From positions 1 to 24,012 of IMG/VR virus record IMGVR_UViG_3300042868_001101: a DNA stretch of 24,012 bases. One strand, given 5' to 3'. Position 1 is the first letter of the stretch. Each line of letters starts with the position of its first letter. This document shows, one piece after another, positions 1 to 18,180 of this stretch. Source of the stretch: a virus. The notes under the pieces are model-generated. The model was not told the origin of the DNA and did not search any database. It saw nothing but the letters and a program-made list of their open reading frames with translations. Position numbers and translations under genes: made by a program.

Positions 1-43
1 TATCATGTTGGTACAGCATATACTGAGTATTGGGCGAATTGAA

Positions 44-580
44 ATGATTAAACTTATTCTTCTTGACATTGATGGTGTGATGACAGATGGTAGAAAATAC
101 TATGACAAAGAAGGCACCGTCAGACTTAAAACATTTTGCGATAAAGACTGGACTGCAATCAAGCGATTTCGTGCGTTAGGCATTGAAGTTGCTTTTCTTT
201 CTGGTGATGGTTTTAACGCAAGCATTGCAGGCAATCGAAACTTGCCATTCTATCTAAACAGAAGCAATGGCACACACACAGACAAAGTAGATTTCTTAGA
301 TGAGATATGTAGCGACTTTAGCGTAACCGCCGAAGAAGTTGTTTATGTTGGCGATGATATCTTTGATGTACGAATTGCAACCGCAGTTGGACTTGCATTT
401 TGTCCTAGCGATGCAACAGTTGAAATGATAAACGTTTGTTCGATGTTAACGCAACGTGCTGGTGAGAATGTTGTTATGGCTCTATTTGAAGAACTTCAAT
501 CAAGAGAATTGCTTCCTAATTATTATTTTGATGAACACTTAGATAACGTATATACGTTAGATGAAAAGGAAAAATTTTGA
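44..580 (+). CDS. KdsC-like HAD-superfamily phosphatase
   Basis: This 178-residue protein belongs to the HAD phosphatase superfamily and most resembles KdsC, which removes the phosphate from 3-deoxy-manno-octulosonate 8-phosphate, and the related GmhB/HisB-type small HAD enzymes. Motif I is LLDIDGVMTDG at residues 6-16, with Asp8 as presumed nucleophile and Asp10 as acid/base. Motif II is LSGDGF, a lysine follows in THTDKVDF, and motif IV is YVGDDIFD. There is no large cap domain, as in KdsC. The open frame also has an ATG at position 5, but ATG 44 places the first beta strand directly at the N-terminus as in the family. The window starts too close upstream to see a promoter. It is the first gene of a coupled sugar-metabolism run. 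The substrate is not determined; an activated-sugar intermediate is an inference from the neighbours. Confidence 0.75.
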   Translation: MIKLILLDIDGVMTDGRKYYDKEGTVRLKTFCDKDWTAIKRFRALGIEVAFLSGDGFNASIAGNRNLPFYLNRSNGTHTDKVDFLDEICSDFSVTAEEVVYVGDDIFDVRIATAVGLAFCPSDATVEMINVCSMLTQRAGENVVMALFEELQSRELLPNYYFDEHLDNVYTLDEKEKF

Positions 581-1233
581 TGTATGATATAGCATTGTAT
601 GGGCATTTAGTATTTGATACGATAAAAGAAAACCCAAAAACAAAACATGATATTGGTGGTATTGTAAACGTGTGGCGTGCATTGAAAAACATGGACCCAA
701 CGTTAGACATTTATGTTTGCCCGTCTAATATCGGAACATCGACTATCACAATCGACAAAAATAATAGTCAAAGAACAAGCGAATCTAAATTAAATGCAAT
801 TGGTGTTGATGTTAAAATTCAACCGGCATTGATTAGTCACATTGCTTATATCAATGAGATTGACGATTTGAGTTTTCTAAAAGATATGACAGGTTTAATC
901 TTTGCCGATATATGTTCTGGCAGAGAGATAAACAAACAGGCGTATAAGTATTTGAACTATATCTTTGTCTCTGAAGAAGACAAGCATTTGCTAAGAGATG
1001 TTGAAGAATTCAAAGGCACAGTCATTACGCATTCGCCTATGACAAGCTACAATAGCAAAGGCGAAACATTCACGCTAGATAAAGAACAATATATAAAAGG
1101 TGCGAACGTATTGGGTGCAGGCGACTTCTATGCCGCTTGCTTTATGTATGGAAAGTTGAACACACGATTAGATTTTGAGTGTATGAAGCTATCGCACAAT
1201 TTAACAACAAATCATTTAAAAGAAAAAGTATGA
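580..1233 (+). CDS. Short PfkB/ribokinase-family sugar kinase
   Basis: A 217-residue protein with the C-terminal PfkB signature GAGDFYAACF; Asp182 is the expected catalytic base that activates the sugar hydroxyl. The N-terminus MYDIALYGHLVFDT resembles the first strand of the fold, and GGIVNVWRALKN fits the sugar-binding GG(N) segment. Typical family members are about 300 residues, so this one is markedly short and seems to lack much of the lid and part of the core. The family transfers ATP phosphate to sugars or sugar phosphates (ribokinase, HldE/HldA heptose kinase). Its ATG sits in a TGATG overlap with the phosphatase stop and is preceded by AAAAGGA, so translation is probably coupled. A TTG one codon upstream is less likely to be the start. 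Whether it is an active kinase is uncertain because of the length. Confidence 0.7.
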   Translation: MYDIALYGHLVFDTIKENPKTKHDIGGIVNVWRALKNMDPTLDIYVCPSNIGTSTITIDKNNSQRTSESKLNAIGVDVKIQPALISHIAYINEIDDLSFLKDMTGLIFADICSGREINKQAYKYLNYIFVSEEDKHLLRDVEEFKGTVITHSPMTSYNSKGETFTLDKEQYIKGANVLGAGDFYAACFMYGKLNTRLDFECMKLSHNLTTNHLKEKV

Positions 1234-2384
1234 AGACAAATGTATTGGTGCCAATGGCAGGTTTAGGCAGTCGCTTTCTGAAAGAAGGTTTTACTGTACC
1301 TAAGCAGTTGATTAATATTAAAGACAAACAGTTGATTGATATCTCACTTGATTGTTTAGACACGACAGACTGTAATTTGATTTTCATTATTCGTGATGAA
1401 CACGTATACAATTTCAGAATGGATGAAATTCTACGTATGAAGTTTGGCAATGATATTAAAGTTGTTGTGCTGGACCATTTGACTAGAGGTTCAGTTGAGA
1501 GTTGCTTGTATGCGTCTGAGTATATCGACAATGATGCACCTCTTGTTATTCATACGTTAGACATTGAGTTTGCACCAGTGTTTGACCCTAAGATTGTTGG
1601 TAGTCTTTTAGCTGATGGTGTTCTGTTGACATTCAAATCAAATAGCGCAAACTATAGTTATGCTAAGTGCGATGATGAAAACTATGTGTCTGAAACTGCT
1701 GAGAAGAAAGCAATTAGTTCTGACGCATGTGTGGGCATCTACGGATTCAAACGTGGTTCCGATTTCTGTAAGTATGCAAAGAAAATGATTGCATGTAACA
1801 TTCGTACAAACAATGAATTCTATATTGCACCATTGTATAATCTGCTGATTGAAGATGGTCTCAAAATCATTACACATCCAGTAGACAAGATGCATGTGTT
1901 TGGCACACCAGATGAGTTTAACTTCTACAAGAAAAACGTTATTAAGCGTTTTGGGCAGAAGCCATTTGCATTATGCTGTGACCACTCTGGCTTTGAAGCA
2001 AAAGAGTTGTTCAAGTCAATCTTAAAAAATATGGGACAGAAGTATATTGACTATGGTACAGTTGTCAATCGTGATTGCAATTACAAAGACTTTATCGGTC
2101 AAGCAGTTAAAGGTATTGAAGATGGCGACTGTGATTATGCGTTTAGTTTTTGTAGAACAGGACAAGGCGTTAACATGTGCGCTAACAAATACAAAGGAAT
2201 TCGTTCTGCACTAATCTATGATGATAATGCAATGGAAATGGCTATGCGTCATAACTGTGCTAACTTCTTTGCCATTCCAGCAATGAATGCAAACACAGAG
2301 AATTTGCATGAGTACATTAGATTAGGATTCCAACATTCATTTGATGGTGGTAGACACCAATTGAGAATTCAGGAACTTGAATGA
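1230..2384 (+). CDS. Bifunctional sugar nucleotidyltransferase / RpiB-like sugar-phosphate isomerase
   Basis: A 384-residue two-domain protein. Residues 1 to about 235 form a GT-A-fold sugar-1-phosphate nucleotidyltransferase, with the nucleotide-binding signature VPMAGLGSRF followed by VPKQL near residues 6-25. Residues about 244-384 form an RpiB/LacA/LacB-type isomerase: a CCDHSGFEAKE start (Asp251, His252), CRTGQGVNMCANK (Cys308 at the catalytic cysteine position of Escherichia coli RpiB), KGIRSAL, HNCANFFAIPA and the terminal GGRHQLR. Ribose-5-phosphate isomerase B interconverts aldose and ketose pentose phosphates; the partner domain would couple a sugar-1-phosphate to an NMP. The ATG overlaps the kinase stop (ATGA). 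The fusion implies that both activities serve one pathway with the flanking kinase and phosphatase. The exact sugar and nucleotide are unknown. Confidence 0.8.
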   Translation: MKTNVLVPMAGLGSRFLKEGFTVPKQLINIKDKQLIDISLDCLDTTDCNLIFIIRDEHVYNFRMDEILRMKFGNDIKVVVLDHLTRGSVESCLYASEYIDNDAPLVIHTLDIEFAPVFDPKIVGSLLADGVLLTFKSNSANYSYAKCDDENYVSETAEKKAISSDACVGIYGFKRGSDFCKYAKKMIACNIRTNNEFYIAPLYNLLIEDGLKIITHPVDKMHVFGTPDEFNFYKKNVIKRFGQKPFALCCDHSGFEAKELFKSILKNMGQKYIDYGTVVNRDCNYKDFIGQAVKGIEDGDCDYAFSFCRTGQGVNMCANKYKGIRSALIYDDNAMEMAMRHNCANFFAIPAMNANTENLHEYIRLGFQHSFDGGRHQLRIQELE

Positions 2385-2710
2385 ATGTATCGAACATAAA
2401 TGATTATGTAAAAGGATGGTTTGTTGGCGACTTCAATCCATCTGTGTTTAAGAACCCGTTCTTTGAGATTGGGCATCATAAACATAAGAAGGGTGAGGAG
2501 ACATTTCCACACTTTCATAAGGTTACAACAGAACTGAATTACATTGTCCGAGGAGAACTTATTGCGTCAGGTAAACATCTCAAAGAAGGTGACATGTGGA
2601 CGTATGAGAAGAATGAAGTTTCTGCTGTAGAATTTTTAACTGACGTTGAATTGATAGTGATTCGATGGCCTAGCATACCGAGTGACAAATATGAAGCTAA
2701 TTGCACATAG
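2381..2710 (+). CDS. Small cupin-fold protein
   Basis: A 109-residue single-domain cupin. It has PHFHKVTTELNYIVRGE, which matches cupin motif 1 (HxH, then Glu four residues on, then Gly), and LKEGDMWTYEKNE as the strand leading to motif 2. The second-motif histidine seems to be missing, so metal binding may rest on the first motif only. Small cupins include sugar epimerases, isomerases and sugar-binding proteins. The context, directly coupled by ATGA to the nucleotidyltransferase/isomerase, suggests work on the same sugar, but no reaction can be assigned. Its last 20 bases overlap the next gene. Confidence 0.65.
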   Translation: MNVSNINDYVKGWFVGDFNPSVFKNPFFEIGHHKHKKGEETFPHFHKVTTELNYIVRGELIASGKHLKEGDMWTYEKNEVSAVEFLTDVELIVIRWPSIPSDKYEANCT

Positions 2711-3146
2711 AGGATTGATGTTTGGTTCTGACAAGACAAACGAAAATGCACCATATCAAATTGAATCTGCATTAGACAAAGGTTTTGATGCTGAGATTGA
2801 TTTGAGAATTGTCAATGACAAATTCTTTTTAGGACACGATGAACCAACGTATGAAATTGATCCTGAGTTTCTACACAAAAAAGGACTATGGATTCACGCT
2901 AAGAACTGGGAAGCATTAGAGTGGCTTTCAGATACACAGTTGAATTACTTTTGGCACCAAGAAGATTCATATACATTAACTAGTTTTGGCATAGTGTGGG
3001 CATATCCAAATCAACCTCTAATGGCAAAGAGTGTCTGTGTTATGCCAGAAAAGCAAGGAATTAGCTTAGAATACGCATTTAATCTACCAATCTATGGCAT
3101 ATGTTCTGACTACGTAGGCGCTATTGACTATTTCAGAAAAAGATAG
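2691..3146 (+). CDS. Short glycerophosphodiester phosphodiesterase-like protein
   Basis: A 151-residue protein starting MKLIAHRG, with the GDPD catalytic His-Arg pair at residues 6-7. It then has NENAPYQIESALDKGFDAEIDLRI, whose Glu and Asp are the usual metal ligands, and FFLGHDE with the second catalytic histidine. These are the hallmarks of the PLC-like phosphodiesterase TIM barrel. Full-length GDPDs are about 240 or more residues, so this is a compact or incomplete barrel. GDPDs split glycerophosphodiesters into glycerol-3-phosphate and an alcohol. A GTG nine bases upstream is an alternative start, but ATG 2691 puts the first strand at the N-terminus. It overlaps the cupin gene by 20 bases and closes the metabolic run. 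Its role could be salvage of lipid head groups or processing of a sugar phosphodiester; this is not resolved. Confidence 0.65.
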   Translation: MKLIAHRGLMFGSDKTNENAPYQIESALDKGFDAEIDLRIVNDKFFLGHDEPTYEIDPEFLHKKGLWIHAKNWEALEWLSDTQLNYFWHQEDSYTLTSFGIVWAYPNQPLMAKSVCVMPEKQGISLEYAFNLPIYGICSDYVGAIDYFRKR

Positions 3147-3152
3147 TATAAT
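3124..3152 (+). promoter_or_regulatory. Sigma70-type promoter upstream of the lysin gene
   Basis: TTGACT (3124-3129) and TATAAT (3147-3152) are separated by exactly 17 bases, a near-perfect bacterial housekeeping promoter. It straddles the stop codon of the preceding gene, so a start near 3159 would give a leader of about 55 bases. The leader also contains CTAAATA (3162-3168), vaguely like a T4 late promoter, and a 5-bp inverted repeat CCCAC/GTGGG (3174-3178/3189-3193) without a T-tract. A strong ribosome site, AGGAAAGGAAG, precedes the lysin ATG. It probably drives the lysin through gp59 genes early in infection. Confidence 0.65.
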
Positions 3153-3214
3153 TCACGTATACTAAATAAAAGACCCACTAAAAAAATTGTGGGCACAATA
3201 AGGAAAGGAAGAAT

Positions 3215-3721
3215 ATGAAAGCACTTTTAACGGCTGTAATATTTGTATTGGCTTTATTTTCAACGCATACAATGGCATCTACTTTGCCAACGCTAAAGGA
3301 AATATCAGAATCAGCATCCGCACCAAAAAACTCTAGCAAATCAGACCTGTACTGGATGGCAATGAACATCTATTACGAAGCAGGTAGTGAACCTTTAATC
3401 GGTAAGATAGCAGTAGGTGCAGTCACACTCAACAGATTGCGTGATAGCAGATTTCCAAAAAACATTCGTGATGTTGTGACAGAACCACAACAATTTTCTT
3501 GGTACAATACTAAGACGGCAAACACGCCACCAGCAGACAACAAACGTTGGAGAGAGTCTTATGAAGTAGCAAAGATGCTATTGACAAAGACTATTGGGAA
3601 TGATATAATTAAACTCTTAGAAGGCGCAACACACTTTCATGCAGTTAGTGTTAAACCAGCATGGGCGGCACGAAAGACAAAAATTGCGACTATTGAGGGG
3701 CATATTTTTTATAGAATGTAA
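3215..3721 (+). CDS. SleB-like cell wall hydrolase with signal peptide (endolysin candidate)
   Basis: A 168-residue protein of the Hydrolase_2 (SleB) family, which cleaves peptidoglycan glycan strands. Residues 1-21 form an export or anchor signal: MKALL, a hydrophobic stretch, then a small-residue site THTMA-ST. The catalytic domain starts near residue 44 with MAMNIYYEAGSEP; Glu55 is the likely catalytic residue. It continues with GKIAVGAVTLNRL, the family motif PQQFSWY and ATHFHAVSVKPAWA near the C-terminus. The gene has a strong Shine-Dalgarno sequence and a consensus promoter just upstream. The signal sequence suggests Sec export or SAR-type lysis rather than strict dependence on a holin. 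SleB-like hydrolases are common in marine T4-like phages. A role in lysis is inferred. Confidence 0.8.
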   Translation: MKALLTAVIFVLALFSTHTMASTLPTLKEISESASAPKNSSKSDLYWMAMNIYYEAGSEPLIGKIAVGAVTLNRLRDSRFPKNIRDVVTEPQQFSWYNTKTANTPPADNKRWRESYEVAKMLLTKTIGNDIIKLLEGATHFHAVSVKPAWAARKTKIATIEGHIFYRM

Positions 3722-3733
3722 AAGGACTTTGAT

Positions 3734-3925
3734 ATGAATATTATGAAAAAGAAAATTGAAATTAAAACTTATCAACGTAGAGGTGGTTACCCTCCAGGTT
3801 ACTATGCGTCTGAATCTGAAGTAACTAATCCTAAATTTCGTTCTGCTAAACCAGCAGTCACTCTAACACAATTTGGACATTTCCGAAATGGTCGAATCAC
3901 CTCGGTGCGATTCTATGAATCTTAA
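3734..3925 (+). CDS. Small hypothetical protein
   Basis: An unrecognised 63-residue basic protein, rich in Lys, Arg, Tyr and Gly, with the segment YQRRGGYPPGYYASESEV and no membrane segment. AAAGGA lies about eight bases before ATG 3734; an in-frame ATG at 3743 is an alternative. It lies 12 bases after the lysin gene and its last 11 bases overlap the gp33-like gene, so it belongs to the same early-type operon. No function is proposed. Confidence 0.55.
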   Translation: MNIMKKKIEIKTYQRRGGYPPGYYASESEVTNPKFRSAKPAVTLTQFGHFRNGRITSVRFYES

Positions 3926-4154
3926 AATCTTAACTCAAAAAGAATTTGAGGCTGAGATTAAACAGATTCAAATTAAGAAGTACCCAATCACAATGATTGA
4001 TGCTATCTTAGAATATTGTATAATTAAAAACGTTGAAGTTGAGACTGCGGCATCTTTAATTACACCTCGCATGAAGTCTGCTATTGAGGGCGAAGCGATG
4101 AAGTTGAAGATGATTGCGCCTAAAGCTAGATTACCTATTGAGGAGGAGATTTGA
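3915..4154 (+). CDS. 33: gp33-like late-promoter transcription coactivator
   Basis: A 79-residue, mostly helical charged protein with a core IDAILEYCIIKNVEVETAASL followed by KLKMIAPKARLPI. This resembles the small gp33 proteins of marine T4-like phages. In T4, gp33 binds the beta-flap of host RNA polymerase and links it to the sliding clamp gp45, so that gp55 can direct late transcription. The order gp33, (unknown), gp59, gp32 also matches the T4 neighbourhood of genes 33, 59 and 32. ATG 3915 is preferred over upstream TTG and ATG codons inside the preceding gene. The ATAAATA motifs before late genes elsewhere in the window fit the presence of this factor. The call rests on recalled family similarity plus synteny. 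Confidence 0.65.
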   Translation: MNLKILTQKEFEAEIKQIQIKKYPITMIDAILEYCIIKNVEVETAASLITPRMKSAIEGEAMKLKMIAPKARLPIEEEI

Positions 4155-4155
4155 T

Positions 4156-4560
4156 ATGCAATGGAAAATTACACCAAACTGGAAGAAAAGTATTGTCGAA
4201 ACTTTTTACTGGACTAAAGATGGCGTTAAGGGCACGATTGAACAAGAGGTTGGTTGGCGATGGGGTGAGTTTTATGTTACGCCACCAGAAGGTGTAACAA
4301 TTGAACAATTCTTAGAAGACTACTCTGGTGAACTTGATGTGTTCGGAGACTTTGATGAGGTTGAACACTTTGAGACTAACGACGGATGTTGGGAAGAATG
4401 GTCGTTCTATGGATTCGAAGATGAAGCAGAACAAGAGCGACTTGAAGAACTTGTCAACAGCGAAGGTTCATATGAACTAGAAGAAGTTGAAGGTTGGAGC
4501 ATTTCCGATAGCGAAACAATCATTCGAGGTGACATTACAATTGTCGAGGTCGAAGACTGA
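4156..4560 (+). CDS. Acidic hypothetical protein between gp33 and gp59
   Basis: A 134-residue strongly acidic protein, with a Trp-rich N-terminal third (WKITPNWKKS, EVGWRWGEFYV) and an acidic C-terminal half containing DGCWEEWSFYGFEDE and a final EVEGWSISDSETIIRGDI segment. It appears to be a small alpha/beta or beta-sheet domain of unknown fold. The start at ATG 4156 follows AGGAGGAG, a very strong ribosome site that lies inside the end of the gp33 gene. Its stop overlaps the gp59 start (TGATG). Its position in the replication/late-transcription cluster suggests involvement in DNA metabolism, but no function is recognised. Confidence 0.65.
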   Translation: MQWKITPNWKKSIVETFYWTKDGVKGTIEQEVGWRWGEFYVTPPEGVTIEQFLEDYSGELDVFGDFDEVEHFETNDGCWEEWSFYGFEDEAEQERLEELVNSEGSYELEEVEGWSISDSETIIRGDITIVEVED

Positions 4561-6240: not shown

Positions 6241-6271
6241 GGGGAAGCAGTAACATGCTTCCCCTTTTTTT
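6241..6271 (+). terminator. Rho-independent terminator after gp32
   Basis: A perfect 9-bp stem, GGGGAAGCA (6241-6249) with TGCTTCCCC (6256-6264), has a six-base loop GTAACA and is followed by seven T. It ends the rightward gp32 transcript. The stop codon of the leftward giant gene (6270-6272) uses the last bases of the T-tract, so the convergent operons meet with no spare sequence. Read leftward the hairpin has no T-tract and should not work as an intrinsic terminator. Confidence 0.9.
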
Positions 6272-9200
6272 ATGCAAGTATTCCCGCATTCACACTAGCA
6301 TCTCTAATAGGATTTCTAGATTTGCTTAAGAGACTTGTGTAGTATGTGTTAACAGATTGATTGTTTGTCTGACTGTTATCTGCAACAGTATTGACTGTCA
6401 CATCACCACCAGCACCAGTTCCTGAACCACCCGTAGTAGTTGTGCCTCCAGTTACAATAGTACCAGAAGTTGTCGATAAAGTTGGCGTTACAATATCAGC
6501 TAAGTCAATACCACCACTCTTGTTTTTGTCGTATATCGGATTACCATTTTTATCATACATCAATATGCTAGTGTCGTATACTTTTCGATTAACTTGATAT
6601 GTTCCTCCTTCACCATCATTGACTGTTACTGTCTCTGTGGTAAATGGTGCTTCAACATACTTGCCCTCTTTCATGCTATAAACCATTGGATTAGTTCCTG
6701 AACTATATTCGTCTCCACTAGTTGCCGCTTGAGGTTTATTAGCCATACCAGTTGTTATCACTAAATCTTCTGCTGTAGTTCCACCATACACACCTTTGGT
6801 TATTGATGTGTCAATTTTATTTGCACCAGTAGTCAAGTCTTTGATTAGTGCAGTTGACACTTTACCAAATGTGAGAGAGTTTAATACTTTAGATGCTTTG
6901 TCTACTGCATCTGCTTTAGCGGCATATGCGGCTTTGAATGCATCAGAGACATGTTTAACAATTTGTGAAGCCGCTTTGCCAGAATCAAAACTCTTCTCTC
7001 CAGGCTTACCTAAATTCAAATCATTACCGCCAGAATTTGGGTCGCCTGTTCTTAAACTAATAATTATACTATTTTTGTCTATGTAACCAACAACAAAATC
7101 GAATGGAGACATTTCTTTTGTTTGAACTTCAGCTTCTTTAGTTGCATTAAATGCAACCCTAATTAAAGCATCCGCAAACTCAGGCCAACCTTTAGGTGTT
7201 GCTTCTCTTGGCGGCTGTAAATCTACGATACCATTAATGTCATTGTTTCCTCTAGTGCGAATAACACGCCAGATTGCTGGATTAGGTTCTGGAGGAGAAC
7301 TACTACTACTAAAAAAGCTGCCCAAGATTGACCCAATAACGAAACCTGCAACGATGCCAACTGGACCACCAAATGCTCCAATCTCAGCGCCAAGTGCGCC
7401 TGCACTTACTGCACTACCAATCACGGTGCCTGCATATGCTCCAGCCGCTAAGCCGGCGGCCGCTCCAACATCACCTTTTGCAAGCGCAAGTACTGCTGGT
7501 ATGTAAGGTAAATATGGTGCAAACGTTTCAAAGCCAGGAATTAATGGACTTGATGCGGCAGTTCCGCCTGCGTTTGCAGTCATGGCTCTACCTAATTCCA
7601 AATCAGCCATTGTTGCGGCATCATAACCACCAAGCCAAGTTGGTGCATATGTTCCATAAGCATTGCTAAGTGTATTTCCTATATTACTAAATGAGCCAAC
7701 AACATTTTTGCCTATTTCTGTACCAGAAAACATGTCAAATGCTTTACCACCAAGATATGATACGCCTTTGTTGACTGCAAAAGATGCAAGCAAAGCCATG
7801 TATGGGTTTTTAATTCCCATCGACTGAACCACTTTTTGTGTAATTGCGGCCTTACCAAAATCGAGTCCCATGTTTCCGACTTCAGCAAGAGTTGAAGAAA
7901 ATGATCCTCTTACACCGTCACCTGTAAAGAATCCTCCACCACCTGCGCCGCCAATAGTCGTTCCACTACCAGTACCTCTAGATTGAAGAAGTTGATTAGT
8001 TCGAATCTGCTGTTCATATTGTGCTTCACTAATCTGTCTTTGTGCAATGGACCTTTCATCACTACCAGCCTCAGCCTTTATCCATCTTTCTTGTGCGGCT
8101 ATTTCTGCTTCTTTTGCGGCATTCAGTTGATTGGCTATATCTTTTGTCATCTTCGGCACATTATCTGCAAGAACAACCATGCCCTGTTGATTTACTTGCA
8201 TCAATGGATTATTCTGTGCGGCTGCCTGCAACGTTCCTGCGGAAGGCATTCCTGTTGGTGAACCACCATACTCTCCACCATACCCACCGAACGCACCCAT
8301 GGTTCTCATTCTCGGATCCATGTTACGCATATTGAGTGGAGTAGTTCCTAATCCACTATTGACAGGTCCCATTATTGAAGACCCCAATACATTAGCCATG
8401 TATGAGATGCCATCTTGTGGTGATGCAAAACCATATTTTGCAAATATAGTTTCAGGTCCAAGTGCAACTTGTCCTCCACTCACACCAAATAGAATTTGTT
8501 CAAGCGCAGTCAACTTACCTTGCTTAGTTCCTTTAGCAAGATTACCTAAAATTTGTCCACCAAGAATGTTTGATTGGTCATCATTCATTCCCATCGAACC
8601 AAAGATGCCTTTTGCTACAGACCTAGCACCAACTTCCATATAAGATGTTGCGGCTTTACTAAAGATTTGTCCAAATGCAGGACCATACTGTTTACCGAAT
8701 ATTGATGTTCCAAGTTTAGTAAGTGCCGGCGTGACTCCCAATAATTTATTGAGTTGCTCACCTCTATACAATTGTCCAGATGCTGTTCGTTGACTTACAT
8801 TTTTATATCCACCAGGATACAATGCTTTCATCAACGTGCCAGAAATAGTTTTTGTTAACTGTCTCTGTAGACTATCTGTAAATTGTTTATTTGCTCTAGC
8901 TAATAGTTCTTCGGGTCTAGTAAACTTACCCTTAGACATTGTAATTCTATTACTCTTAAGTTCTTTAGCAGTAATTCGAGTATTTTCTTTGATGCCGCCT
9001 AATTCTCTAATGACTTCTTGTGTGCGTTTATTAGTCTCACGTTCTGTGTAGTATCCTTTAGCAGTCACTTTACGCAAATATGCATCTACCCACGCAGGAG
9101 ATTTATTTTGCATTGATTCTGCTACACCAGCATCACCCATTTCAATCAATGGCGTTGCTGAAGTTCTCATTAGTGCAGTATTTGTTGCAACAGGAACTAT

Positions 9201-10934
9201 TGCATCTATTGCGGCTTTTGCTACAACATTTTCTCCTGCGACTTTAGTTGCAATTGCTTTTGCTTCTTCTTCAGTCTTGCCTGCGCTCAATGCATCATAA
9301 TATGCTTTGACTGCACTACCTTTGATATTTCTATTCGATTGGTCTTTGAAACCAGGAACATTTCCAGCTCTTTTTCCATCAAAATTTCCACGTTTAGCAG
9401 GTGCCTTTGTAGGTGCTTTTGAGTCTCCAGGTGGTGTTGGTGCCGTGGCTGGTGCGGCAGGTTTACTCTCTTTATTTAATGCACCAAAGCTAATAACTGT
9501 TCTTGGGTTGATTGGTGTGGTACCACGTCTAACCATAAAGTGTAAGTGAACACCCGTAGAACGACCTGTACTACCAATCACACCAATCGGGTCACCTATC
9601 TTAACTTTTTGTCCTACTTTATCATATGCATACGCTAAGTGAACATATGTGGTTGTCATACCATTCAAGTGGTCAACAACAACAAAATTTCCTGACCTAT
9701 CGTTATAGTCTTTACGAGTAACAAGACCATCGGCAGCGGCTACAACAAAGTTTCCTGCTGGCGCCGCCAAGTCGATACCATCATGCTCTTTATAATTTCT
9801 TATTGCAGATTTTACACCAAATTCAGAAGTAACTGTATATGGAACTAGAAGAGGAACTCTCCACACAAGTCCAGAAGTTTGATTTACTTGCGTTCTTTGT
9901 GCTTGCGGAGAAGATGAATTACCCCCACCCGAAACACTAGATGTAGGACTTGTTCCCCCTACAGGTATTCCCATTGCAACACGGCCTCTATCAATCATTG
10001 ATAGATTACGTCCACGACCCTCATTACTATAATTTTCATTTCTTGAAGGCGTATCATCTTGAACCGGAGCAGGACCACCAAATTCAGGACTTATTCCCGA
10101 TACAACGTCATCACCATCAGGTGTGAGTTCTGTTTTTCCTGATTTTTGTGTTTGGTCGTAAATATACGAACCAGCTTCAGCAATGTCTGCGGCCAATAAT
10201 ACCCAACCTAAACCAGGAATAAATCGGGCGCCAATCTTACCTGCAATCTTTGCACCTTTTAATGCGCCTTTGCCAAGTGACCCAAGACCAGGAAGTTTTC
10301 CTCCTAATCCTTTACCACCAAACATCAAAGCCGCAGATAGCACTAACTGTGCAATGAAACTTGCAATCTTCTTTCTAAGTCCAACCAACGCACTTAAAAT
10401 AGCTGTACCGAGTATACCACCCAATGCACTTCCAAGTATGTTGCTTAACAATCCACCGCCGGCAGATTCTGCTTTATCGCCTGCAACAGCGGCACCACCC
10501 CTACCAAGTCCAGAATTTTTGATTGCATCAATGAGTGCTTGATTTTGTTGTGCTTGTTCTCTAGCCTTTTCTTCATCAAACATCATTTTATATTGTTCAG
10601 CTTTTGCAGTTGCTTTTGCAACATTAGCGGTTGCGGCAGTATTAGCATTAATCTGTGCTAACTGTTGAACCATTTGTGCAAATGGATTTCCACCTACTAC
10701 TGATGAAGATGATGTTGGAGTCTTTGAAGACCCCTGTGCTAAAGCCGCCTTTGCTTGCCCAATACTATTTGCTTTTTTGCTTAGTGCAGAGAATGCACCA
10801 AAGCCGGCAACAAGTCCTGGCATCTCAGAAAGGGCAGCCCCCTTGAGTCCATAACCAAAGCCCTTAACTATACCACCAGCAGACTGCTTAAGCGTGTCTC
10901 CTAATGCGGCTCCGTAGTTGCCTATTGTTGCCAT
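6270..10934 (-). CDS. Giant virion protein with M23 (LytM-type) peptidase domain; candidate tape measure protein
   Basis: A 1554-residue Ala/Gly-rich protein. The N-terminal part has a helical, Gln/Ala-rich segment (about 60-130) and a hydrophobic stretch (about 160-210). Residues about 355-490 are an M23 zinc endopeptidase with all expected ligands: EHDGID (His384, Asp388), TYVHLAY (His432) and GVHLHF (His463, His465), so it should cut peptidoglycan cross-bridges. A long middle region follows, then a very hydrophobic Gly/Ala-rich segment (about 1138-1205) before a Ser run. Near the C-terminus DKNKSGGIDLAD (1469-1480) matches an EF-hand-type calcium loop. Hydrophobic patches plus a peptidoglycan hydrolase, and position downstream of the gp26/gp51 pair, fit a tape measure protein (T4 gp29 is only 590 residues). 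A tail-associated lysin or other virion protein is the alternative. The start is supported by AGAGGG about ten bases upstream. Confidence 0.75.
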   Translation of the reverse strand: MATIGNYGAALGDTLKQSAGGIVKGFGYGLKGAALSEMPGLVAGFGAFSALSKKANSIGQAKAALAQGSSKTPTSSSSVVGGNPFAQMVQQLAQINANTAATANVAKATAKAEQYKMMFDEEKAREQAQQNQALIDAIKNSGLGRGGAAVAGDKAESAGGGLLSNILGSALGGILGTAILSALVGLRKKIASFIAQLVLSAALMFGGKGLGGKLPGLGSLGKGALKGAKIAGKIGARFIPGLGWVLLAADIAEAGSYIYDQTQKSGKTELTPDGDDVVSGISPEFGGPAPVQDDTPSRNENYSNEGRGRNLSMIDRGRVAMGIPVGGTSPTSSVSGGGNSSSPQAQRTQVNQTSGLVWRVPLLVPYTVTSEFGVKSAIRNYKEHDGIDLAAPAGNFVVAAADGLVTRKDYNDRSGNFVVVDHLNGMTTTYVHLAYAYDKVGQKVKIGDPIGVIGSTGRSTGVHLHFMVRRGTTPINPRTVISFGALNKESKPAAPATAPTPPGDSKAPTKAPAKRGNFDGKRAGNVPGFKDQSNRNIKGSAVKAYYDALSAGKTEEEAKAIATKVAGENVVAKAAIDAIVPVATNTALMRTSATPLIEMGDAGVAESMQNKSPAWVDAYLRKVTAKGYYTERETNKRTQEVIRELGGIKENTRITAKELKSNRITMSKGKFTRPEELLARANKQFTDSLQRQLTKTISGTLMKALYPGGYKNVSQRTASGQLYRGEQLNKLLGVTPALTKLGTSIFGKQYGPAFGQIFSKAATSYMEVGARSVAKGIFGSMGMNDDQSNILGGQILGNLAKGTKQGKLTALEQILFGVSGGQVALGPETIFAKYGFASPQDGISYMANVLGSSIMGPVNSGLGTTPLNMRNMDPRMRTMGAFGGYGGEYGGSPTGMPSAGTLQAAAQNNPLMQVNQQGMVVLADNVPKMTKDIANQLNAAKEAEIAAQERWIKAEAGSDERSIAQRQISEAQYEQQIRTNQLLQSRGTGSGTTIGGAGGGGFFTGDGVRGSFSSTLAEVGNMGLDFGKAAITQKVVQSMGIKNPYMALLASFAVNKGVSYLGGKAFDMFSGTEIGKNVVGSFSNIGNTLSNAYGTYAPTWLGGYDAATMADLELGRAMTANAGGTAASSPLIPGFETFAPYLPYIPAVLALAKGDVGAAAGLAAGAYAGTVIGSAVSAGALGAEIGAFGGPVGIVAGFVIGSILGSFFSSSSSPPEPNPAIWRVIRTRGNNDINGIVDLQPPREATPKGWPEFADALIRVAFNATKEAEVQTKEMSPFDFVVGYIDKNSIIISLRTGDPNSGGNDLNLGKPGEKSFDSGKAASQIVKHVSDAFKAAYAAKADAVDKASKVLNSLTFGKVSTALIKDLTTGANKIDTSITKGVYGGTTAEDLVITTGMANKPQAATSGDEYSSGTNPMVYSMKEGKYVEAPFTTETVTVNDGEGGTYQVNRKVYDTSILMYDKNGNPIYDKNKSGGIDLADIVTPTLSTTSGTIVTGGTTTTGGSGTGAGGDVTVNTVADNSQTNNQSVNTYYTSLLSKSRNPIRDASVNAGILA

Positions 10935-15731: not shown

Positions 15732-17233
15732 TGGCTACCACTAATAATAATTTTTCTGCGTTTACTAGGTTTTCGCCTGACATAGGGCAGAATTCAGATA
15801 TAAGAGTATCGCAGGATCCATCAATTGTTCCAGGTTTTGGTTCGGATGTTGATGTTAAAGAAGTTTATTTACTCACACAATATGGTGAGAAGGTAGACTT
15901 GTTAGGTGTGTTTAGAGACCTTGAAATTATCGAAGATATGTTTTCTGCATCTATTGAGGGTGTAATTACAATTGACGATTCTGGCGGTGGTTTAGAAAAG
16001 TTTGCACTACGTGGTGGAGAATTGATTGGATTGAAAATTGCTAAGCCAGGAAATGGTGAAGTCATTATTTGGCGCCAAGATTTGGTTGTTCATAAAATCA
16101 GCGAAAGCACAGTAGACCAAACAACTTTGCATAGCGCATATCAATTGCAATTCACATCAAGAACTTTTGTAAATTCTACGAAAAAATGTTTGTTTAAAAG
16201 TTACAAGAATATGTCGATTGGAGACGCAGTAACATCTATGTTCTCCGAAATGGGTGGCGGAAACGATTTGGTTTTAGAAGACCCTAAAATTACATTAGAG
16301 AAACCTTTTATCTCCACAGGACTTATGCCACACAAAGCAATTGAAGCGATGACGCATCGTGCGTGTGCGAAAGGCGACTTTTATGTATTCTTTGAAAGAT
16401 TCAATCCAGTATTTGCGACAAATACTAGAACAGATGAACCATTCACATCATCATATTACTTTGGTAGTCTGAATAAACTAATTAAAGATGCGGCACAATA
16501 TGGCGTGCATAATATTAAATTTGCACAAAAAACTGTAGCGAATAAAGAAGATGCAACCTTAAGAACGTTAAAGTTTGAGAGAAGAGAGAACTTCAATCAC
16601 TTGAATGCAATGCTATTGGGATTATATAACACAACAGTCACATCGATTGACCCAATATCAAGAACTCACGCAATGCGAAAGCTATCATATGCAAATGGAC
16701 AAAACGAATCGACTGATTTCTATTCATATAAGACGCTTGACAATTCAAACATATTTTCAAGATACGATGATATTGCCGGACAAACTCCAGGAAGAAAGCT
16801 AATTACATCTTCACTAAATGATTCAGTAAACAGAGATGAGTGGTTAACAAATAACATCTACGGACATTTGACTAAGAACTTATTTCAGATTGGCGTAGAA
16901 ATTGAAGGTGGTAAAAATAATATTGGTGTTGGACACATTGTGAACTTCATTGTTCCTAGTGCGTTTGAAAAATTAGCAGACCCAACAAACCCAAGTATAC
17001 CTAATGATAGAATTCATTCGGGTAGATATTTTGTTATGTCTGTTCACCATAAAATTAGAATGGGTTCATATTCAAAATCATTAGAATTAGGCAGAGCAAC
17101 TATTCCATATGACTTCAATACTGGAGTTGGCACACCAACTATAGAAGCGGCATTGCCAAATAGACGTTATCAAGACAACACAGATTCAACAACAATAGTG
17201 AATAGATATTGGAGAAAAGGTTTAGTACCATGA
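15731..17233 (+). CDS. gp27-like central baseplate hub protein
   Basis: A 500-residue protein with the features of phage hub proteins (T4 gp27, P2 gpD, VgrG N-terminal region). The first tube-like domain includes VYLLTQYGEKVDLLGVFRDLEIIEDMFSASIEGVITIDD. The mid region holds a long insertion (about 150-330) with NSTKKCLFKSYKNMSIGDAV, the usual hub helix that opens the second domain. The C-terminal barrel shows IGVGHIVNFIVPS and GRYFVMSVHHKIRMGSYSKSLELGR. Hub trimers hold the spike and continue the tail tube. T4 gp27 is 391 residues, so this one is larger. The gp5-like spike partner is encoded three genes downstream. Its stop overlaps the kinase start (ATGA). Confidence 0.65.
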   Translation: MATTNNNFSAFTRFSPDIGQNSDIRVSQDPSIVPGFGSDVDVKEVYLLTQYGEKVDLLGVFRDLEIIEDMFSASIEGVITIDDSGGGLEKFALRGGELIGLKIAKPGNGEVIIWRQDLVVHKISESTVDQTTLHSAYQLQFTSRTFVNSTKKCLFKSYKNMSIGDAVTSMFSEMGGGNDLVLEDPKITLEKPFISTGLMPHKAIEAMTHRACAKGDFYVFFERFNPVFATNTRTDEPFTSSYYFGSLNKLIKDAAQYGVHNIKFAQKTVANKEDATLRTLKFERRENFNHLNAMLLGLYNTTVTSIDPISRTHAMRKLSYANGQNESTDFYSYKTLDNSNIFSRYDDIAGQTPGRKLITSSLNDSVNRDEWLTNNIYGHLTKNLFQIGVEIEGGKNNIGVGHIVNFIVPSAFEKLADPTNPSIPNDRIHSGRYFVMSVHHKIRMGSYSKSLELGRATIPYDFNTGVGTPTIEAALPNRRYQDNTDSTTIVNRYWRKGLVP

Positions 17234-18180
17234 AACTCAAATTTTCAGAGTATGTAGATTTAAAAGACTACAAAGCAACTCAACTCGTAGAGAAACAAAT
17301 TCTTTACAACAATGGCGCAAAGTATGGACAGATTGTGTTCCTTGCTGGTGGTGCGGGTTCGGGTAAAGGCTTTGCAATTCAGCACTTCATGCAAGGGTCT
17401 GAGTTTAAGATACGTGATGTTGACGAATTAAAGATTGCATTTCAAAAATTAGATGCACTTGGTAAATTTACGACTCAAGACTTGCTTGATAAGTATGGTG
17501 ATAAAATTTCTCAGAAAGATAAAGAACTTATTCAAAGAGAATTGATTGACAAGAATGTAAAGATGGGTGATTTAAATCTTAAGACTCCAACGCACGTTTA
17601 TATTCTACACGTACTTGTTCGTGCTACTGGTGCGAAAGATAAGACACTTGAGTTGATGCTTGCTGGCGCTGAAAAAGGACAGTTACCAAATCTTATTTTT
17701 GATAGCACATTCAAAGAAGTTGAAGACATGACAAATGTTTTACCTAAACTATTTGAAGCTGGATATGAACCGAAGAACATTCACGTATCTTGGGTTCTGA
17801 CTAATTATCAGATTGCAATTAAAAATAACAAATCAAGAGCAAGAGTTGTGCCAGAAGACATTCTGCTTGCCACTCATGCTGGTGCGGCACAGACTGTATA
17901 TAACTTAGTGACAACAGCTATGCCACCATCTGTTCAGGGCGGTGTTTATGTCATTCTAAATAATCCAGAGAATACAATTTTCATTGTCGACCCAAAAACA
18001 AATAAACCATACAAAGACAGAAAAGGTAATCCTGTCATTAAAGATTTTAAATACTTGACACTTAAAGAACCAGGAAAACCTGCTAAGAAAGAACTAGATG
18101 TGAAAAAGCAATTACTGACTTGGATTCGTGATAACGTACCGCCAGGCGCAGTAGACACATCAGAGTTGGATAAGCTATGA
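17230..18180 (+). CDS. P-loop kinase-like protein (zeta-toxin-type)
   Basis: A 316-residue protein with a clear Walker A motif GGAGSGKG (residues 40-47, Lys46) after a hydrophobic strand IVFLA. It is followed by FKIRDVDELK and later NLIFDSTFKEVEDM, a possible Walker-B/DxT region, and HVSWVLTNYQIAIKNNKSRARVVPEDI with basic residues typical of a lid. The layout recalls zeta-toxin/polynucleotide-kinase-like phosphotransferases that act on small molecules, nucleic acids or proteins. The substrate is unknown. It is placed between hub and spike genes and coupled by ATGA on both sides, so it is made with late virion proteins. The N-terminus MKLKFSEYV resembles the start of T4 internal head proteins, so packaging into the virion is a possibility. 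Confidence 0.6.
   Translation: MKLKFSEYVDLKDYKATQLVEKQILYNNGAKYGQIVFLAGGAGSGKGFAIQHFMQGSEFKIRDVDELKIAFQKLDALGKFTTQDLLDKYGDKISQKDKELIQRELIDKNVKMGDLNLKTPTHVYILHVLVRATGAKDKTLELMLAGAEKGQLPNLIFDSTFKEVEDMTNVLPKLFEAGYEPKNIHVSWVLTNYQIAIKNNKSRARVVPEDILLATHAGAAQTVYNLVTTAMPPSVQGGVYVILNNPENTIFIVDPKTNKPYKDRKGNPVIKDFKYLTLKEPGKPAKKELDVKKQLLTWIRDNVPPGAVDTSELDKL

Follow-up and report, generated by a model that had tools for sequence, protein, structure and literature searches.

Nucleotide-activated heptoses (ADP- or GDP-heptose) are produced by a pathway consisting of an isomerase (GmhA), a kinase (HldE or HddA), a phosphatase (GmhB) and a nucleotidyltransferase (NT; HldE or HddC). Enzymes of such kinds are also carried by phages. 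Cyanophage sugar clusters have been reported to include epimerases, cupin isomerases, PfkB kinases, HIGH-type NTs, HAD phosphatases and glycosyltransferases (Iyer et al. 2021, PMC7824862, accessible in part), and the accessible part of the report on S-SCSM1 describes a cyanophage surface-sugar cluster with other enzymes (PMC9602691). Among phages that modify their DNA, the T4-like phage RB69 makes arabinosyl-hydroxymethylcytosine, the roles of ORF055c (a SIS-domain protein) and ORF53_52c in providing UDP-arabinose being presented as speculation in the available text (PMC6024577), while the section on TH1-063 of the Shewanella phage Thanatos offers a second parallel, with pentose DNA modification and a UDP-xylose pyrophosphorylase (PMC12838424). 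In this study, we analyzed a stretch of 24,012 bases from an IMG/VR virus record (IMGVR_UViG_3300042868_001101; hereafter the window) of a T4-like aquatic phage, the first 3.1 kb of which carries a module of five overlapping genes. These genes probably constitute a nucleotide-sugar cassette, the product of which would feed the glycosyltransferases of a phage surface-glycan cluster and alter the surface polysaccharide of the host.

The five genes lie on the plus strand, with neighbors overlapping by 1, 4, 4 and 20 bases. They are predicted to encode a KdsC-like HAD phosphatase (178 residues, 44–580); a compact sugar kinase of the PfkB/ribokinase fold (217 residues, 580–1233), whose start coincides with the last base of the HAD stop codon; a fusion protein (1230–2384) composed of a sugar-1-phosphate NT domain (fusion residues 1–240, 1230–1949) and an RpiB/LacAB-type isomerase domain (residues 246–384, 1965–2384); a cupin of 109 residues with a metal-type HxH..E pattern (2381–2710); and a short GDPD-like protein of 151 residues (2691–3146), the gene for which overlaps the cupin gene by the 20 bases. 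An earlier reading of this DNA made from the sequence alone (the sequence-only reading) had proposed four overlapping genes between positions 44 and 2710, encoding the HAD phosphatase, the PfkB kinase, the NT-RpiB fusion and the cupin. All four open reading frames were found at these positions with matching domains. The set of four is not complete, however, as the overlapping GDPD-like gene belongs to it as well.

The arrangement at 44–3146 is not a matter of chance, as shown by its conservation. An IMG/VR search with the fusion protein yielded 24 loci, which together with two isolate genomes gave 26. All five genes were present in 24 of them (the HAD gene being cut by the contig end in three, L011, L015 and L020), and the two exceptions, L014 and L017, are contigs that begin inside the module. 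A second search with a kinase profile found 91 relatives, the best 80 of which were analyzed (21 of the 80 are contigs also found with the fusion protein). The HAD gene was directly upstream of the kinase gene in 80 of 80 phage loci, and the NT-RpiB gene was directly downstream in all 71 loci with room for it; of the other nine, six carry the complete gene or a part of it, and in three the sequence stops immediately after the kinase gene. A cupin gene followed the fusion in 68 of 70 loci. The GDPD-like gene was adjacent in 53 of 69 loci and elsewhere nearby in 6; in the Synechococcus phages SynMITS9220M01 and Bellamy, it is located further downstream rather than directly behind the cupin gene. 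Among GenBank phage records, the kinase was found only in these two phages (Bellamy being represented by two records). Pairwise dN/dS values against four relatives ranged from 0.022 to 0.284 in 20 gene comparisons, some of the dS values being saturated, and the module genes are thus under purifying selection. The gene set expected in relatives by the sequence-only reading is therefore present, and the catalytic residues of all four enzymes are invariant in the alignments. As a side observation, a divergent module (L102, 9053–12130) has a cupin 43% identical to that of the window, with the GDPD-like gene before the HAD gene instead of behind the cupin gene.

The phosphatase matched models of KDN-9-phosphatase (2e-24) and the KdsC subfamily (2.5e-24), both under the curated cut-offs; with TIGR01670 (KdsC phosphatases) it reached 86 bits, below the subfamily cut-off of 106.95, so that it is better called KdsC-like than a member of that subfamily. 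It is nevertheless nearer to KdsC than to GmhB (86 vs 18.6 bits). Among solved chains, the best match was 2p9j, a hypothetical protein (4.6e-22), and chains named KdsC matched from 2.4e-19 down. The catalytic residues are present, with D8, D10, K81 and G103-D104-D105 invariant in 35 aligned sequences. The kinase gave no Pfam match up to an E value of 0.1, and its sequence matches to sugar kinases are weak and mostly C-terminal. Its AlphaFold2 model, built with 48 sequences, has a mean confidence (predicted local distance difference test, pLDDT) of 92.9 and aligned over 205–213 of 217 residues with ribokinase-superfamily chains (Z 18.9–20.3, root-mean-square deviation 2.4–3.3 Å among the best 50 matches), including ribokinases, nucleoside kinases and ketohexokinases. 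G179, G181 and D182, together with D13, G26 and N30, are invariant in the 48 sequences, and we take the G179/G181/D182 region to be the GAGD-type anion hole and catalytic Asp of the superfamily. On its predicted structure, the kinase is a member of the PfkB/ribokinase superfamily. A viral structure library contained one strong relative of 223 residues, 38% identical. An absence of the ribokinase lid was considered at first and then rejected, as the model shows long hairpin strands near the N-terminus.

The NT domain is closest to an NDP-sugar (nucleoside diphosphate sugar) pyrophosphorylase of V. cholerae (PDB 4evw, 2.7e-21 by sequence), the best fold match of the fusion model being an NT at 5.8e-18, and P8, G11, R15, P24-K25 and D111 are invariant in 41 sequences. 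The second domain matched PF02502 with 1.7e-29 (103 bits, cut-off 24.7) and TIGR00689 with 89.3 bits, just over the cut-off of 88.3. Its C308, D251-H252, H341, R375 and R379 are invariant in the same number of sequences and align with five solved RpiB chains; the Cys, Asp-His, His and Arg residues are presumably the catalytic residues of RpiB/LacAB isomerases. A fold search with the fusion model retrieved only NT structures among the best 50 matches and no RpiB, and the model has low confidence at residues 11–40 and a pLDDT below 50 at residues 372–384. The domain is thus assigned to the RpiB/LacAB family by its sequence. An Arg follows the catalytic Cys (C308-R309) in 72 of 72 fusion proteins, in the pattern CR[TS]GQG[VI]N without exception, while a Gly occupies this position in the nine cellular RpiBs compared and in the five solved chains. 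A tenth cellular RpiB (L036) was unmatched by the patterns used and is not part of this comparison. Relatives of the NT were also seen in other fusions: with a HAD_2 phosphatase in cyanophages B23 and S-CAM9, and with a second NT domain in S-SM2, Bellamy and on an Azospirillum plasmid (L028:9344–10717, L029:9344–10729, L030:9995–11563, L027:22226–23800 and L122:4998–6620). The NT has thus been recombined with various partners.

The 109-residue protein matched phrog_24762 (3.2e-48) and gave no Pfam match. H44, H46, E51 and G58 are invariant in 26 sequences, an HxH..E..G pattern that we take to be the cupin motif. Its bacterial homologues, located mostly beside NT genes, include two annotated as "cupin domain-containing protein" and one with a Cupin_2 match below the cut-off; motif and homologues together point to a cupin. 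The GDPD-like protein matched phrog_34507 (2.4e-21) and gave no Pfam match and no convincing PDB match. Its HRG, ExD and HD residues are invariant in 11 sequences, and its first ~55 residues show a weak profile link to genes of the bacterial cassettes described below, one of which is annotated as a phosphodiesterase. The GDPD-like name is provisional and comes from this motif and profile link.

The genomic neighborhood of the module suggests a use for its product. Bellamy and SynMITS9220M01, both complete Synechococcus phage genomes, have the module within a long glycan cluster that also encodes glycosyltransferases and NAD-dependent epimerases and includes genes annotated as heptose isomerase and kinase; there, both the HAD protein and the NT-RpiB fusion are annotated as "phosphatase" and the kinase as "hypothetical protein". 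Upstream of the module in close relatives are genes for a GDP-mannose dehydratase, a cytidylyltransferase-cupin fusion, DUF6165, a C-methyltransferase and two proteins with no Pfam match, and, in some of them, a WavE-like gene (a neighbor cluster with 9 members in the 18 loci compared). When neighbors were clustered in the 53 loci with a length of 9 kb or more, and Pfam was run on representatives of 20 of the 28 clusters listed, 13 clusters scored above the cut-off, three below it, and four gave no match. Above it were GDP-mannose dehydratase, GT11, GT6, FkbM methyltransferase, PMI-type cupin, glycosyltransferase family 4, cytidylyltransferase, GHMP kinase, HtrL_YibB and carbamoyltransferase, as well as a radical SAM protein, a ribonucleotide reductase small chain and a SegE-type endonuclease; below it were DUF7796, Glyco_trans_1_2 and SseK/NleB. 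Thus, in relatives, the module is co-located with glycosyltransferases and nucleotide-sugar-modifying enzymes and is part of a surface-glycan cluster. In the window itself, where the contig begins at the module, the only glycan neighbor left is the probable 3' end of a WavE-like gene for lipopolysaccharide (LPS) synthesis on the plus strand (1–42; 13 residues and a stop codon, the gene being cut by the contig end). These bases translate to YHVGTAYTEYWAN followed by the stop, similar to the end (...YHIGKAYTEYWAN) of the WavE-like gene preceding the HAD gene in L008, which itself is a borderline family member (PF07507, 27.5 bits vs a cut-off of 27).

The module resembles the heptose pathway in its isomerase, kinase, phosphatase and nucleotidyltransferase logic, and its kinase has the PfkB fold as in HldE. 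The sequence-only reading had drawn this analogy, and the four kinds of folds are indeed all present; however, this is not an ADP-heptose pathway by its parts, as it has an RpiB-type rather than a SIS-domain isomerase, a KdsC-like rather than a GmhB-like HAD phosphatase, and an RmlA/4evw-like rather than a HIGH-type NT. The "LPS biosynthesis" clusters of T4-like cyanophages also contain cupins, PfkB kinases, HAD phosphatases and NTs, but the accessible parts of the two papers name HIGH-type NTs and no RpiB and describe neither the HAD-kinase-NT/RpiB-cupin unit nor the fusion (PMC7824862, PMC9602691). No description of an NT-RpiB fusion with these partners was found in the literature, in a search that most subscription papers lay beyond and that leaves novelty unproven. 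Sugar clusters that encode PfkB, cupin and HAD proteins are already known from cyanophages; the enzyme combination found here looks unusual.

RB69 may provide a closer comparison than was first thought. In the RB69 stretch at 26500–33000, one part of ORF53_52c is an NT and another gives weak matches to APH/fructosamine kinases (E 0.002–0.02, below the cut-offs), and we noticed that RB69p051, a protein of 128 residues annotated as phosphoheptose isomerase, has no Pfam match and looks HAD-like by eye. As in the module, isomerase, NT, kinase and HAD-like functions (the last two from a weak match and by eye, respectively) are adjacent in a T4-like phage, and other folds may thus provide RB69 with the same four activities, as an isomerase-kinase-phosphatase-NT set for arabinose. 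RB69 differs in that its isomerase is of the SIS type rather than RpiB, and that its kinase, possibly of the APH type, would be a region of the NT protein and not a PfkB-fold protein of its own; its NT and RB69p051 were not matched by the profiles of the present module. The suggestion that the RpiB fold represents a different solution from SIS-domain enzymes is supported, as RpiB stands where RB69 has its SIS isomerase. The part of the parallel concerning UDP-arabinose remains speculation by the RB69 authors (PMC6024577, accessible in part).

This comparison raises the question of whether the NDP-sugar is used to hypermodify DNA, a role that the sequence-only reading had considered and that has been proposed for RB69 with its arabinosyl-hydroxymethylcytosine. 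Such modifications protect phages from restriction, and the four possibly comparable RB69 activities are encoded beside the DNA polymerase gene. RB69, however, also has two matches to PF00303 (the thymidylate-synthase/dCMP-hydroxymethylase family), the second of which, at 25506–25850, we take to be gene 42, whereas none was found in 11 records related to the window, a search that did not extend to other routes, e.g., TET-type ones. Two of these records (Bellamy and SynMITS9220M01) were deposited as complete, and the nine others are IMG/VR contigs that may be fragments, the window's own record being one. Profiles for DNA glucosyltransferases (PF11440, 0 of 9; PF09198, 0 of 4) were uninformative, as no control matched. 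In addition, the module lies among surface-glycan genes in relatives, and bacterial polysaccharide clusters contain relatives of its NT and cupin genes. The genomic setting and the lack of PF00303 matches in related records favor surface decoration, and a use in DNA modification appears rather improbable. Alternatively, the sugar might decorate the virion (tail fibers or capsid) rather than the host surface. This is consistent with the presence of T4-type baseplate genes on the same contig and with the accessible text on pelagimyophages, in which LPS-type genes lie partly in a host-recognition cluster with tail fibers (PMC7029224). The same text states that its freshwater group has no LPS-related genes. 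However, neighbors such as the WavE-like gene, like the bacterial cassettes, are indicative of LPS or O-antigen chemistry, and we consider virion decoration unlikely. A third notion is that the genes only move carbon, as a helper of the pentose phosphate pathway in which RpiB supplies ribose 5-phosphate for nucleotide synthesis. In SynMITS9220M01, genes annotated as 6-phosphogluconate and glucose-6-phosphate dehydrogenases do occur ~5–8 kb upstream of the module. Nevertheless, RpiB always occurs within the NT fusion directly after the HAD and kinase genes (71 loci with room), arguing for an activated sugar as the end point, and this makes a purely metabolic role highly improbable.

Bacterial relatives lead in the same direction as the neighborhood. 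Seven plasmid records carry a relative of the cupin gene, and five were examined. On plasmids of Pseudomonas alcaligenes, Ruegeria and Roseinatronobacter, genes for GDPD-like, HAD, NT and cupin proteins occur in this order or nearly so, the cassette being followed by a second NT gene and a WavE gene in Roseinatronobacter and Ruegeria; a Scandinavium plasmid has the four genes scattered. A Bacteroidota chromosome (G293) has genes for GDPD-like, HAD, NT, cupin and NT proteins near GMD and ABC-exporter-like genes (named by eye), and another Bacteroidota genome (G080) has GDPD-like, HAD and NT genes and the start of a cupin gene at a contig end. Plasmids of Legionella and Rhizobium, reached through the NT, gave no cupin match. 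In the cassettes of Pseudomonas (L103), Ruegeria (L105), Roseinatronobacter (L033) and Bacteroidota (L120, L121), the NT is homologous to that of the phage (best matches of 1e-44 to 3e-56 per locus), as is the cupin (1e-18 to 2e-28), and a GDPD-like gene is present, with a WavE gene in L033, L103 and L105. They differ in having a HAD_2-type phosphatase where scanned and in lacking a PfkB kinase and an RpiB fusion; the only RpiB match in nine bacterial loci was a separate gene on the Rhizobium plasmid. The phage module thus appears to share its core with a bacterial polysaccharide cassette while having a different front end.

We also looked for a cellular source of the whole module. A genome-contig scan with two peptide patterns found it in one cellular contig (L031; G001:C39, PACT01000001.1), from a metagenome-assembled genome of Crocinitomicaceae. 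This contig carries Hli-like and ferredoxin-like genes (by eye) and is letter-identical to an IMG/VR viral contig (L050) over 15,998 bases; it is probably a misbinned cyanophage fragment and was rejected as a source. In 395 Bacteroidota genomes, the kinase profile (E up to 1e-8) matched only this contig. The fusion profile gave a match (up to 1e-25) in 257 of the 395, and among the matches listed, only the same contig covers residues 1–384, the rest covering the NT or the RpiB part. No kinase match was found on plasmids, where 238 records matched part of the fusion; the one that covered more than 80% turned out to be an NT-NT tandem of Azospirillum and not an NT-RpiB fusion. As Bacteroidota were the phylum sampled genome by genome, a cellular ancestor in other phyla is possible.

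These results suggest the following scheme. The RpiB domain would interconvert a ketose phosphate and an aldose phosphate, with ribulose 5-phosphate as our best guess for the former. Between them, the PfkB-fold kinase and the KdsC-like phosphatase would then bring the terminal phosphate to C1, either through a bisphosphate first, as in the heptose pathway, or through the free sugar first, and the NT domain, fused to the isomerase, would make the NDP-sugar. For the other two proteins we can offer guesses: isomerization or epimerization of the sugar by the cupin, and a reaction of the GDPD-like protein on a phosphodiester. Glycosyltransferases of the surrounding cluster would finally transfer the sugar to the host surface polysaccharide, virion glycans being less likely acceptors. 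Of the sequence-only reading, a phage-encoded set with isomerase, kinase, phosphatase and NT folds is supported, with conserved catalytic residues and a conserved gene set, while the use in DNA is disfavored. Ribulose 5-phosphate is the usual substrate of RpiB, and a pentose is thus our first guess for the sugar, although a doubtful one in view of the Arg substitution and the missed RpiB cut-off.

Several observations weigh against this interpretation or narrow it. The RpiB domain is under the equivalog cut-off of TIGR01120 for ribose-5-phosphate isomerase B (86.9 vs 138.65 bits), and together with the Arg after the catalytic Cys, this means that the substrate may not be a pentose phosphate. 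From the predicted ribokinase fold it does not follow that phosphorylation takes place at C1. No recognizable cupin gene was found in two of the phage loci (L049 and L059), and the GDPD-like gene was not in the available stretch in 10 of 69. Among bacteria, the cupin gene of an Acetobacter pasteurianus plasmid lies among hypothetical genes with no NT gene beside it, so that the two are not strictly linked, and profiles of the kinase and the phage-type HAD protein were unmatched in the nine bacterial loci. As these lack the kinase and the phage-type HAD protein and have RpiB, if at all, as a separate gene, the role of the bacterial cassettes carries over to the phage only in part.

Elsewhere in the window, a gp6-like baseplate protein has its nearest relative in Pelagibacter phage HTVC008M (41.9% identity). 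By eye, a probable SleB-type cell-wall hydrolase gene is located directly downstream of the module (3215–3721), a 1554-residue protein with an M23-like peptidase stretch is encoded on the minus strand among tail genes (6270–10934), and a 323-residue protein with a P-loop-like GGAGSGKGF motif is encoded between tail genes (17209–18180). Positions 1–4300 contain 20 promoter-like sites vs 15.2 (standard deviation 4.3) in shuffled sequences, and three terminator-like sites vs 2.5. Strong matches to the sigma-70-like consensus occur at 3124–3152, at the end of the GDPD-like gene ahead of the hydrolase gene, and at 3581–3609 (11 and 12 of 12 positions), with the total number of sites not clearly above that in shuffles. 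A tRNA scan of the whole window found none.

The reasons why lytic aquatic phages carry surface-glycan genes are unsettled, superinfection exclusion, grazing and virion glycans all being under consideration. With its small size (2.7–3.1 kb), tight conservation, presence in two complete Synechococcus phages and linear predicted chemistry, this module opens the question to in vitro tests. PHROGs 3980, 24762 and 34507, which are listed as of unknown function, would also receive names, as would the proteins annotated as "phosphatase" or "hypothetical protein" in these phages. Tentatively, the module might represent a phage-specific pathway to a rare NDP-sugar, in which an RpiB with an altered loop (C-R-[T/S]-G-Q-G) fused to an NT, a reduced ribokinase-fold C1 kinase and a KdsC-like phosphatase form a fold combination that our searches of cellular genomes and plasmids did not turn up; the host would not make this sugar, which would then mark infected cells or virions. 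If true, such a pathway would have been invented in parallel to that of RB69, which is based on a SIS enzyme.

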